A stretch of DNA of 64,000 nucleotides, taken from assembly GCF_000769655.1 (NCBI RefSeq), contig NZ_CP008887.1, positions 992,001-1,056,000 of the forward strand, written 5' to 3'. This DNA is from Thermococcus eurythermalis. GTDB taxonomy: Archaea; Methanobacteriota_B; Thermococci; Thermococcales; Thermococcaceae. The translations under genes and the position numbers were made by a program. Positions 1 to 53,755 of the stretch are shown here, one piece after another. Numbering within the stretch: position 1 is the first letter of the stretch; each line of letters starts with the position of its first letter. The notes beneath the pieces were generated by a model that worked only from the letters and a program-made list of their open reading frames with translations, was not told where the DNA came from and searched no databases.

Positions 1-845
1 GCGACCCAGAGAAAGCCCTCTATCCGGCTGCCGCGGTCGAGTTCATCCACAACTATTCGCTGGTTCACGACGACATCATGGACATGGACGAGCTCAGGCG
101 CGGAAGGCCCACCGTCCACAAGCTATGGGGCGTCAACATGGCAATTCTGGCCGGCGACCTGCTCTTCAGTAAGGCCTTCGAGGCGGTAGCCAGGGCAGAA
201 GTAAGCCCAGAGAAGAAGGCTAGAATCCTAGATGTCCTCGTGAAGACCTCCAACGAGCTCTGCGAGGGCCAGGCGCTCGACATAGAGTTCGAGACGAGGG
301 ACGAGGTAACGGTTGACGAGTACCTCAAGATGATTAGCGGAAAGACGGGGGCGCTCTTCAACGGCTCGGCAACGATAGGTGCAATCGTCGGAACTGACAA
401 CGAGAAGTACATCCAGGCGCTCTCAAAATGGGGAAGGAACGTGGGAATCGCCTTCCAGATATGGGACGACGTGCTCGATTTGATTGCCGACGAGGAGAAG
501 CTTGGAAAGCCCGTCGGGAGCGACATAAGGAAGGGCAAGAAGACGCTCATAGTCAGCCACTTCTTCCAGCACGCGAACGAGGAGGACAAGGCCGAGTTCC
601 TGAAGGTCTTTGGAAAATACGCGGGAGACGCCAAGGGGGACGCTCTCATCCACGACGAGAAGGTCAAGGAGGAAGTTGCCAAGGCCATCGAGCTCCTCAA
701 GAAGTACGGCAGCATAGACTACGCGGCCAACTACGCAAAGAACCTCGTGAGGGAGGCCAACGAGGCCCTGAAAGTCCTCCCCGAGAGCGAGGCGAGGAAA
801 GACCTTGAACTCCTCGCCGAGTTCCTCGTCGAGAGGGAGTTCTGA
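1..845 (+). CDS. idsA: Bifunctional short-chain isoprenyl diphosphate synthase (GGPP/FPP synthase), 3' part
   Basis: Condenses isopentenyl diphosphate with allylic diphosphates to make the C15/C20 chains used for archaeal ether lipids; cytosolic trans-prenyltransferase family. The reading frame is open from the left edge (first complete codon at base 3), so the N-terminus with the IPP-binding part lies outside the window. Visible are the first aspartate-rich motif DDIMDMD followed by RRGRPTVH, and the second one in FQIWDDVLDLIADEEKLGKPVGSD, with the KGKKTLI segment after it. Both Mg2+-binding motifs are intact, so the enzyme should be active. Chain length cannot be decided because the residues before the first motif are mostly missing. 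The gene ends in a T-rich stretch at 845-860. Confidence 0.93.
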   Translation, partial: DPEKALYPAAAVEFIHNYSLVHDDIMDMDELRRGRPTVHKLWGVNMAILAGDLLFSKAFEAVARAEVSPEKKARILDVLVKTSNELCEGQALDIEFETRDEVTVDEYLKMISGKTGALFNGSATIGAIVGTDNEKYIQALSKWGRNVGIAFQIWDDVLDLIADEEKLGKPVGSDIRKGKKTLIVSHFFQHANEEDKAEFLKVFGKYAGDAKGDALIHDEKVKEEVAKAIELLKKYGSIDYAANYAKNLVREANEALKVLPESEARKDLELLAEFLVEREF

Positions 846-43805: not shown

Positions 43806-43883
43806 GGGGCCGTAGGGTAGCTTGGCCCATCCTGCGGGCTTTGGGAGCCCGTGACCCGGGTTCAAATCCCGGCGGCCCCACCA
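43806..43883 (+). tRNA. tRNA-Pro (anticodon TGG)
   Basis: Acceptor GGGGCCG pairs with CGGCCCC, the discriminator is A and CCA is encoded. The anticodon stem CGGGC/GCCCG encloses TTTGGGA, anticodon TGG. The promoter CGAAAAACTTAATAAG lies about 40 bases upstream, within the 195-base gap after tRNA-Leu, in which I see nothing else. The first hairpin unit of repeat island A begins four bases after the CCA. Confidence 0.95.
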
Positions 43884-44580
43884 CAAGAAACTTTTGCCAA
43901 GCAAAAGTTTCATCAAAGTTCGTAGCTCCTTTTGAGGGTTCAAATTTTGAATGCTTTTCTCGTTAGATAATTGCTCTTTAAGTGAGAACTTCTTAAATTG
44001 CTCCCTTATTGTTGGTTTAACGTTGGAATAGACGCCCGAAGGGCGTCATGAAGGAAGTAAACCCTCTGGTAAGGCTGGCCTAAATGCCTTCTCCTTGGAG
44101 CAAGAACTTGTTTTGAGTAAAATCTTGCATTACTGCCTTTGTGGAAGGAGCTACAAACTTTTGGTGAACCTTTCTCCAGAAGCTTCAATGCAGTTCTCAC
44201 TATCGTCCGAATGTCTTGACGGATGGCGGGAAGATTGGGTGCTTCTTAGAATTACTCAGTTTGAGTTGCCCTTTGGGGAATTGGTCAAACTTTGTGGGGG
44301 AAAGTTAGTGATTCCCTAAAGAAGTTCCTTGTGAGTGTTTGCACTTCCCCAGTGTCCTAGGAGCTTAGAATTAAATGCTCAAAGACCCTGCGTAAGGGGT
44401 TTACCTCACTCGCGCTCCTCCGGAGCGCTTCCAAGAAGAAACCCCATTCTCGGGTTGTTATTTGCAATAAGGAATTCCCTGCAAAAAGTCCCCTTGAAAG
44501 CGCAAACTTTCTCCAGAACAACACTCCAGAAAAGAATCACGAGCCTTGATCAAACTTCGCGCAGGCGAAGTTTGTGAGAA
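43884..44580. repeat. Non-coding repeat island A: two elements with inverted terminal hairpins
   Basis: No coding frame is credible here. The island contains inward-facing repeat units, each a hairpin of about 22-23 nt followed by a flank close to CATCAAAGTTCGTGATTC. Forward units: 43888-43930 (AAACTTTTGCC/AAGCAAAAGTTT) and 44286-44316. Reverse units: 44147-44187 and 44531-44574 (AAACTTCGC/GCGAAGTTT). They delimit two elements, 43888-44187 (300 bp) and 44286-44573 (288 bp), with 98 bp between. Each element has a central hairpin near TTGGAA and GTAAACCC-like sequences (GACGCCC-GAA-GGGCGTC at 44030-44046; GCGCTCCTCCGGAGCGC at 44412-44428). The first element is clearly homologous to the first element of island B. 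The island fills the whole space between convergent tRNA-Pro and tRNA-Thr. Confidence 0.85.
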
Positions 44581-44657
44581 TGGAGCCCCGGGCGGGGTTT
44601 GAACCCGCGACCTGCCGCTTACCAAGCGGCCGCTCCACCAGGCTGAGCCACCGGGGC
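44581..44657 (-). tRNA. tRNA-Thr (anticodon GGT)
   Basis: On the minus strand GCCCCGG pairs with CCGGGGC, the discriminator is T and CCA is encoded. The anticodon stem GCCGC/GCGGC encloses TTGGTAA, anticodon GGT. The TATA box (ATTTATAAAGG, about 44687-44697) overlaps the stop codon of the PIN-domain gene upstream. A reverse hairpin unit of island A begins seven bases after the CCA, as with the tRNA-Pro and tRNA-Arg genes. Confidence 0.95.
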
Positions 44658-52603: not shown

Positions 52604-52681
52604 GGGCCGGTGGCCTAGCCTGGATGGGGCGTCGGCCTTCGGAGCCGAAGGTCGCGGGTTCGAATCCCGCCCGGCCCGCCA
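52604..52681 (+). tRNA. tRNA-Arg (anticodon TCG)
   Basis: Acceptor GGGCCGG pairs with CCGGCCC, the discriminator is G and CCA is encoded. The anticodon stem TCGGC/GCCGA encloses CTTCGGA, anticodon TCG. The promoter is GGTTTATGTTT at about 52568-52578. Four bases after the CCA the first hairpin unit of repeat island B begins, with the same sequence as after tRNA-Pro. Confidence 0.95.
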
Positions 52682-53692
52682 TAAGAAACTTTTGCCAAGC
52701 AAAAGTTTCATCAAAGTTCGTAGCTCCTTTCTGAAAGTTCAAATTTCACAGTGATTTTCTCTTGGATATGTGGTCTTGGAAATGAGAACTTCTTAAATTG
52801 CTCCTTTGGTGTGGGTTTAATGTTGGAATAGACGCCCGAAGGGCGTCGGGAGGAGAGCAAACCCTCTGACAAAGCCTGTATAACTGTGTTCTCTTTGGGA
52901 ACAGGGGATTGTGAGGGGGTAAAAATCCTGCATTACGGCCTTATGGGGAGAGCTACGAACTTTTGGTGAAGCTTTTTCCAAAAGCTTCCTGTACTCTCAA
53001 ACCCCCGGAGTGGGGCTTCGCCCCACAACCCCGTTTTCTTCCAAACCTCCGGGGAGCTAACTCCCCCACACCCCCCAAACTTTATCTGCACAAAGTTTCA
53101 TCGAAGTTTGTGATTCTTTTACCGGGGCGTTTTGGGAGTGTTTGCGCTTTTAACGGCTTTTGTAGATTGTGAATTAATTCCCTACTTTTGGAAGCTTTCT
53201 CGTGCGGGTTTACTCTTGAAAATACCACATCTTGAGAGTGCAAACTCTCCAAATTATGCCCCCAAAGAAGAATCACGAACCTTAGTCAAACTCTGCGGGC
53301 TGTCGTCCCTCCGCGTCGAGCAAAGCTCAACGTCGCACAGGCAACTTTTTGGGGTTATGAGACGAAGCTCCACTCCAGGGGTTTGAGAGTACAGGAGGCT
53401 TTTGAAAAAAGCTTCACCAAAAGCTCGTGATTCCTCGTTAAAGCTCCCTTTGTAAGGGGATTTCAAACTCAAGCCCGCCATTGAAAGTTTGAATTCATTG
53501 GATTAGAGTCTTCCACGCGGGTTCTGCTTGAACCGCACTCCAAAGGAGCGCAAAAAGGCTTGAACCCCTTAAAAGGTGCACTCAAAGGGATTCACTCTCC
53601 AAGAAAACAACTCGGGAAGAAATCCACTCAACAAACAGCATTTCAAAAGGAATCACGAACTTTGATGAAACTTTTCGCCAGAAAAGTTTCCT
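52682..53692. repeat. Non-coding repeat island B: three elements with inverted terminal hairpins
   Basis: About 1 kb without a credible gene. Inward-facing units delimit three elements: 52686-52988 (303 bp), 53077-53300 (about 224 bp) and 53398-53689 (292 bp), separated by 88 and 97 bp. Forward units start at 52686, 53077 and 53398; reverse units end at 52988, 53300 and 53689. Each is a hairpin (for example AAACTTTTGCC/AAGCAAAAGTTT) plus a flank like CATCAAAGTTCGTGATTC; the reverse unit near 53300 has lost its hairpin symmetry. Element 1 matches element 1 of island A along its whole length, including GACGCCC-GAA-GGGCGTC at 52831-52847. The two spacers carry a further long inverted repeat (listed separately). 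The island lies between convergent tRNA-Arg and a C/D-box-like RNA. Confidence 0.85.
52967..53430. repeat. Long inverted repeat nested in island B
   Basis: The segment from about 52967 to 53035 (GGTGAAGCTTTTTCCAAAAG, then CCTGTACTCTCAAACCCCCG and GAGTGGGGCTTCG) recurs inverted at about 53350-53420 (read in reverse: GGTGAAGCTTTTTTCAAAAG, CCTGTACTCTCAAACCCCTG, GAGTGGAGCTTCG). The arms differ at only a few positions over about 70 bp and enclose the middle element. Thus not only the element ends but also parts of the spacers were duplicated in inverted orientation. Confidence 0.8.
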
Positions 53693-53694
53693 GG

Positions 53695-53755
53695 CCTCAG
53701 AAGTGGTGGCCCTCCGCACCCCTCGGTGCCGGGCCAACCGCTCATCATCGGCAGG
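53695..53755 (-). ncRNA. Probable C/D box small RNA
   Basis: On the minus strand a perfect C box ATGATGA (53742-53748) and a D box CTGA (53697-53700) are separated by 41 bases, the normal distance for archaeal C/D sRNAs, with GCC before and GGC after forming a terminal stem. The inner D'/C' boxes (CCGA, then GGTGCGG) are poor. The guide next to D would be AGGGCCACCACTT. A TTTAAG promoter element lies about 30 bases upstream in the dut promoter region. Directly after the D box comes the last hairpin unit of island B. Confidence is limited by the weak inner boxes. Confidence 0.55.

Follow-up and report, generated by a model that had tools for sequence, protein, structure and literature searches.

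The island of non-coding repeats described here consists of elements of a family, designated F1, that is probably a mosaic repeat of the REP/BIME kind, specialised for the 3' ends of small-RNA genes and acting as a substrate for recombination. The anatomy of the repeat, its position and its fixed orientation were observed directly, as were the exchange between F1 and another family, F2, in one and the same slot, the nesting of one element in another, and the ending of synteny at or inside F1. The island (island A) lies in a window, the whole 64,000-nucleotide stretch of DNA that was analysed, from a 2.13-Mb genome (G000:C1:992001-1056000) whose close relatives in a public collection are Thermococcus.

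Island A fills its gap exactly, starting at the nucleotide after the gene for tRNA-Pro(TGG) and stopping at the nucleotide before the gene for tRNA-Thr(GGT), as located with ARAGORN. The island is thus not free-standing, a fit that the sequence-only reading had not seen. It had placed two non-coding elements here, and these, facing inward with ∼96 bp between them, lie where it put them, with terminal and central hairpins exactly as it gave them (Table 1). It described the ends as inverted copies of one terminal unit, but the two ends of an element differ, one being of a left type (AAACTTTTGC..) and the other of a right type (GAAGCTTTTT..). Similarly, the gap that it measured as 98 bp is of about that length but is not a plain spacer. 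It is itself a degenerate repeat unit that is found in other islands at 76 to 83% identity over ∼58 nt at at least eight loci; the R2 model shows a weak likeness to F2 left ends (positions 44204-44254, E 0.037), and the unit is possibly an F2 remnant.

The left terminal hairpin of element 1 belongs to a family of 89 ends. A model of the F1 left end (52 positions) matched element 1 at 43888-43939 (E 7e-16) and, on the minus strand, at its right end (44137-44186, E 1e-5), and it matched element 2 at 44523-44574 on the minus strand (E 2e-12). No protein gene is present, in agreement with the initial claim. The open reading frames in the island are short and variation follows a pattern of boxes and spacers rather than codons, which also rules out a decayed protein gene. 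A known RNA family was ruled out as well, because no Rfam family matched inside island A.

Table 1. Features of islands A and B and of the genes that bound them (positions in the window).
Feature	Positions	Strand	Basis
tRNA-Pro(TGG); its encoded CCA end bounds island A on the left	43806-43883	+	ARAGORN, Rfam RF00005
F1 element 1, subtype A, ∼304 bp; boxes GTAGCTCC/GGAGCTAC, centre GACGCCC	43884-44187	+	
Left terminal hairpin of element 1, GAAACTTTTGC-CAA-GCAAAAGTTTC, 3 nt after tRNA CCA	43887-43911	+	sequence
Left sub-terminal box of element 1, GTAGCTCC	43922-43929	+	sequence; co-variation with right box
Central hairpin of element 1, GACGCCC-GAA-GGGCGTC	44031-44047	+	sequence; stem positions co-vary
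Right sub-terminal box of element 1, GGAGCTAC	44147-44154	+	sequence, co-variation
Right terminal hairpin of element 1, imperfect (GAACCTTTCTCCAGAAGCTTC)	44167-44187	+	sequence
"Spacer", a degenerate repeat unit known from islands of other genomes	44188-44282	+	
F1 element 2, subtype B, ∼298 bp; boxes GTGATTC/GAATCAC, centre GCGCTCC	44283-44580	-	
Central hairpin of element 2, GCGCTCC-TCC-GGAGCGC	44412-44428	-	sequence
Left terminal hairpin of element 2, CAAACTTCGC-CTGC-GCGAAGTTTG (minus strand), 6 nt from tRNA-Thr 3' end	44551-44574	-	
tRNA-Thr(GGT), right boundary of island A	44581-44657	-	ARAGORN
tRNA-Arg(TCG), left boundary of island B	52604-52681	+	ARAGORN
F1 element, island B, 80% identity to element 1	52682-52990	+	sequence matches, left-end model
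∼84-bp repeat unit ("CTCTGTACTCTCAAACCCC" type), in several genomes	52991-53075	+	95% over 84 nt in another genome
F1 element, island B, truncated or rearranged	53073-53297	+	
F1 element, island B; left hairpin adjoins 3' end of C/D sRNA sR47	53393-53694	-	
C/D sRNA sR47	53695-53752	-	Rfam

The proposal that these elements form a defined family was borne out by BLAST and model searches, in which the same termini and length recurred in many copies in nearly all Thermococcus-like genomes. In its own genome, where the census of copies was based on sequence searches, island A gave 64 BLAST matches; the strongest fell at ∼15 other loci, with E values down to 1e-68, far beyond chance. BLAST also detected the island in 34 of 61 relatives. 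The left-end model gave 29 end-matches in the genome of the window and up to 40 per genome, and it found F1 in 76 of the 94 genomes of the order but in none of the nine that belong to genus g12. A sample of 24 genomes from outside the order gave no hit. A plasmid or viral origin was ruled out by the lack of any F1 match in PLSDB, in INPHARED, or, with a strict pattern, in IMG/VR.

F1 is a non-coding, imperfectly palindromic repeat of ∼290 to 305 bp. In 21 aligned full copies, a left arm composed of a 9- to 11-bp hairpin and the boxes ATCAAAGTTsGTAGCTCC, GATTTT, GAGAAC, and GGGTTTA is followed by the central GACGCCC hairpin, the mirror boxes TAAACCC, GTTCTC, AAAATC, and GGAGCTAC, and the right hairpin. 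The second family, F2 (CAGCCCTTTC..GAAAGCGCTGGCGGAAG), occurs in 71 of the 94 genomes, and the numbers of F1 and F2 copies vary independently among genomes. One genome (G007) carries an expansion of F2, with 27 F2 left ends versus 3 of F1. At five loci (L093, L105, L113, L132, and L055), a multi-hairpin segment (GACGTCGAGC..GCTCGACG..GGGACGAAAGTCCC) is inserted between the half-stems of some left hairpins.

The two arms of an element are matched in part. Box subtypes are paired within elements (among the main classes A..A in 53 and B..B in 17, with not one A..B mix among 129 elements), and the box subtype goes with the subtype of the centre. Co-variation between the arms falls at the central stem and the box GAGCTAC/GAATCAC, and more weakly at a few further columns, but does not extend along the whole arms. 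In a test against a consensus fold, covariation was confined to the terminal hairpins, the central hairpin, and this one box. Outside the centre and that box, complementarity of the arms was no higher inside one element than across elements (0.486 versus 0.511), a result that rules out a continuous long hairpin or cruciform. A suggestion of the sequence-only reading, a structured RNA unit, is not supported over the whole length, where co-variation between the arms is limited to the central hairpin and a single sub-terminal box. The hairpins are conserved and the element starts exactly behind the processing site, as might be expected if it encoded a long structured RNA, but the comparison of the arms weighs against this, both orientations occur, and Rfam holds no such family, and it seems very unlikely that the element has this function.

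In total, 136 islands were delimited in 132 loci. Eighty-four begin 0 to 8 bp after the 3' end of a tRNA, with more than 20 isoacceptors represented, and none of the 136 adjoins a tRNA 5' end. The slot that the elements occupy lies 0 to 6 nt past the 3' end of tRNA, box C/D RNA, and H/ACA RNA genes. Where ARAGORN had called no gene next to an intact left end, the neighbour was the H/ACA RNA Pab160, the C/D RNA sR47, or a tRNA missed by ARAGORN, which from its 3' sequence is probably an intron-bearing tRNA-Trp; a few such ends had no assigned RNA. Orientation is fixed, in that the left-type end faces the tRNA in nearly all adjoining F1 copies, and F2 left ends, too, mostly lie behind CCA plus 2 to 3 nt. 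At L006 (∼2400), L068 (∼2890), and L079 (∼3100), F1 or F2 left ends follow a GC-rich sequence ending ..CTGCCCCCC, possibly an undescribed small-RNA gene. In G034, a CRISPR-like array (repeat CTTTCAATTCTCCTAGAGTCTTATTGCAAC) is located within ∼130 bp downstream of tRNA-Arg(cct).

The hairpin on the tRNA side is perfect in 87 of 89 cases despite 15 different stem sequences, with compensatory GC/CG and TA/CG/GC exchanges occurring in step. All 91 left hairpins at tRNAs are intact; internal left ends behind another element usually have only the inner half-stem. T-tracts lie at fixed distances inward of the hairpin, with TTTT in the interval +12..32 in 42%, versus 19% of shuffles, and only 6 of the 136 islands are situated between divergent genes. 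In several pairs of copies at the same tRNA, the boxes were 86 to 95% identical and the spacers were at chance level (20 to 32%), an estimate from a multiple alignment to which the spacers had been added, so that spacer identity may be too low. Single copies look constrained because they are old and diverged and yet have kept their hairpins and boxes, which suggests that selection may act on each F1 copy.

Together with the exact spacing of 0 to 6 nt from mature 3' ends, these features could be accounted for by a module that the host maintains at RNA 3' ends, either as a bidirectional terminator or boundary or as a hairpin with a protective or positioning role in 3' processing. However, most tRNAs have no element, the same tRNA can be bare in a sister species, F1 is missing from the nine g12 genomes, and 300 bp is large for a terminator. 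We consider such a module possible rather than probable. A broader version, in which both F1 and F2 would be host-maintained 3'-end modules selected copy by copy, with the flipping of chromosomes in the order as a side effect, appears somewhat unlikely. F1 and F2 may point to a new archaeal 3'-end signal for stable RNAs.

When three genomes were compared tRNA by tRNA, each species could have something different behind the same tRNA (F1, F2, or a T-rich trailer), confirming the expectation that presence would differ between species. Behind tRNA-Ile(gat), F2 has its full hairpin in two species, and the genome of the window has F1 at the tRNA and then F2 from the inner half of the F2 hairpin onward; here a newer element has evidently been nested over half of an older terminal hairpin. 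The tRNA-Val(gac) element has been exchanged in place: identity between G034 and G036 is 90% and 97 to 100% in the flanks but only 48 to 71% in the elements. Purely vertical, locus-by-locus inheritance was ruled out by such slots, which hold different copies between conserved flanks. The body tracts of F1 are ∼52% identical, equally within and between genomes, ruling out an amplification burst within one genome. Recent copying is rare, since near identity over more than 100 bp was confined to 3 of the 223 pairs of tRNA-side copies compared within genomes.

The turnover of copies bears on the MITE-like character that the sequence-only reading had offered as its other option. Terminal inverted repeats and the absence of coding capacity agree with that comparison, but the copies are old and diverged, mostly occupy one exact slot, and have no linked transposase or visible target duplication. 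A non-autonomous element might have been moved by a trans-acting transposase that targets the region just past small-RNA genes, with the sub-terminal boxes as its binding sites. The matched box subtypes at both ends, the copies at small RNAs other than tRNAs, and the independent expansions of F1 and F2 would all be in keeping with such mobility. On the other hand, compared sites had no target-site duplication, although clean bare-to-filled pairs with a shared distal flank were few, and ∼130 loci with 2 to 8 kb of context contained no autonomous parent with the same ends. Large open reading frames in long islands, inspected by eye as a possible autonomous partner, were not transposase-like; one integrase-like frame lay beside one element. 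The Y1/HUH transposase (PF01797) matched in 25 of 94 genomes and is absent from most F1-rich ones, such as G036 (38 F1 copies), G001 (38), and G034 (35). Neither it nor an SSV integrase has a distribution matching that of F1, and both were rejected as the mobiliser by co-distribution. With copies that are old and diverged rather than in bursts, a MITE-like origin is doubtful.

Despite the rarity of insertion sequences, Thermococcus chromosomes rearrange fast, with published breakpoints at tRNA genes. Between G034 and G036, synteny at tRNA-Arg(gcg) passes through the element and ends at its right end, and at tRNA-Lys(ttt) it ends inside the element. Where the upstream flank was conserved, the downstream flank was kept in 12 of 42 element-bearing pairs versus 21 of 33 bare pairs (Fisher P = 0.005, for non-independent pairs from three genomes and a 1.5-kb reach that islands shorten).

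Cossu et al. (2017; PMC5495485) report a laboratory inversion in T. nautili between two tRNA-Gly genes, across a perfectly conserved segment of 176 bp extending out of the tRNA into the DNA behind it; one corrected sequencing error is mentioned at the recombined segment. Exactly this length (86 bp, one mismatch, and 89 bp) is common to the tRNA-Gly(ccc) and tRNA-Gly(tcc) loci of G036, with 41 bp belonging to the tRNA and 135 bp to F1. The published primer maps upstream of the tRNA-Gly gene in G036, and also in G034. From the match of the 176-bp segment, we infer that G036 is T. nautili. The G036 sequence and the published experiment jointly show that F1 made up the larger part of the recombining segment in the T. 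nautili inversion. According to the same text, the integrase work needed a shared segment of at least 104 bp, a length that the 176 bp with one mismatch at the tRNA-Gly pair exceeds.

A second inversion, of ∼140 kb between tRNA-Leu and tRNA-Thr, is described in that text (PMC5495485) as not reproducible with the tRNA sequences alone, and the authors consider that the two genes have too little common sequence to recombine. Between G013 and G062, tRNA-Leu(caa) swaps places beside rpiA with the Pro-Thr pair, which is homologous to the tRNAs that flank island A. We take G013 to be probably strain 4557 and G062 probably T. onnurineus. As mapped, tRNA-Leu(caa) and tRNA-Pro(tgg) of G013 would sit at the ends of published inversion 1, with which their positions fit. 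These two genes have no detectable shared sequence, and their 3' flanks have 128 bp in common at 77%, an F2-like element. A repeat family that caps these tRNA genes offers the homology that is missing. Downstream of rpiA at L167 (G036) and L170 (G002), an integrase-like reading frame splits tRNA-Leu(caa), the same arrangement as where pTN3-like elements have integrated, which agrees with the pTN3 site of T. nautili.

Similar F1 or F2 left arms stand at many tRNA 3' ends, which would therefore make up a scattered set of short homologous segments. A pTN3-type integrase or host recombination acting between these arms would flip chromosome segments, recombination between arms could also swap or convert elements in place, and left arms may pass from tRNA to tRNA via tracts that start within the tRNA, for which there are three clear pairs. 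Less surely, each copy may also serve its gene, given that the T-rich trailer of bare tRNAs is replaced by a stable hairpin and T-tracts and that old copies retain both hairpin and boxes. Several points count against a recombination substrate of this kind. Most copies lack the 104 bp of common sequence that the integrase work needed according to the available text, and arrival of F1 at C/D and H/ACA genes is impossible by tRNA homology. To reach a bare site for the first time, the repeat may depend on a trans-acting recombinase. The presence of SSV-type integrases did not track that of F1 or F2, although the SSV family may miss some pTN3-type integrases.

Like the REPs, BIMEs, and REPINs of bacteria, F1 is a dispersed non-coding palindrome at the 3' sides of genes, with paired inverted units and mosaic clusters, and it is in high copy in extragenic space. 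It differs in its length of ∼300 bp with a central hairpin, its location at small-RNA 3' ends, and the lack of a Y1/RAYT transposase in most carriers. Moreover, the GTAG tag of REPs is not constant next to the hairpin foot in F1, which is followed by ATC or ACC rather than GTAG or GGAG, with GTAG ∼10 nt further on, or GTGA in subtype B. The elements are short, non-coding, bounded by terminal inverted repeats, and variably present between species, as archaeal and bacterial MITEs are, but unlike MITEs they have one exact slot, a fixed orientation, no visible target duplication, and no burst of identical copies. Since membership among REPs and among MITEs each fails on a tested feature, F1 was filed among palindromic interspersed repeats. 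The Ty3 and Dictyostelium TRE retroelements insert beside tRNA genes, encode proteins, and duplicate their targets; F1 likewise adjoins tRNA genes but is non-coding. The inversions by the pTN3 integrase (Cossu et al. 2017; PMC5495485) occur at the same genomic places, and the recombined tRNA-Gly segment, as given in the accessible text, contains F1, which is, however, a substrate and not an integrase. In that text, the segment is presented as a tRNA with conserved sequence behind it, and no repeat family is named. A search of the open literature found no description of such a family, and term searches of the accessible text of RNA papers on T. kodakarensis, T. onnurineus, and P. abyssi and of the T. 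gammatolerans genome paper found no mention of it.

A second island in the window, island B (52682-53694), is likewise fitted between small-RNA genes, tRNA-Arg(TCG) and the C/D RNA sR47. It includes an 84-bp unit (CTCTGTACTCTCAAACCCC...GGGGCGAAGCCCC) that is present in islands of several genomes at 79 to 95% identity (for example, L074, positions 2209-2292) and that is a third repeat family.
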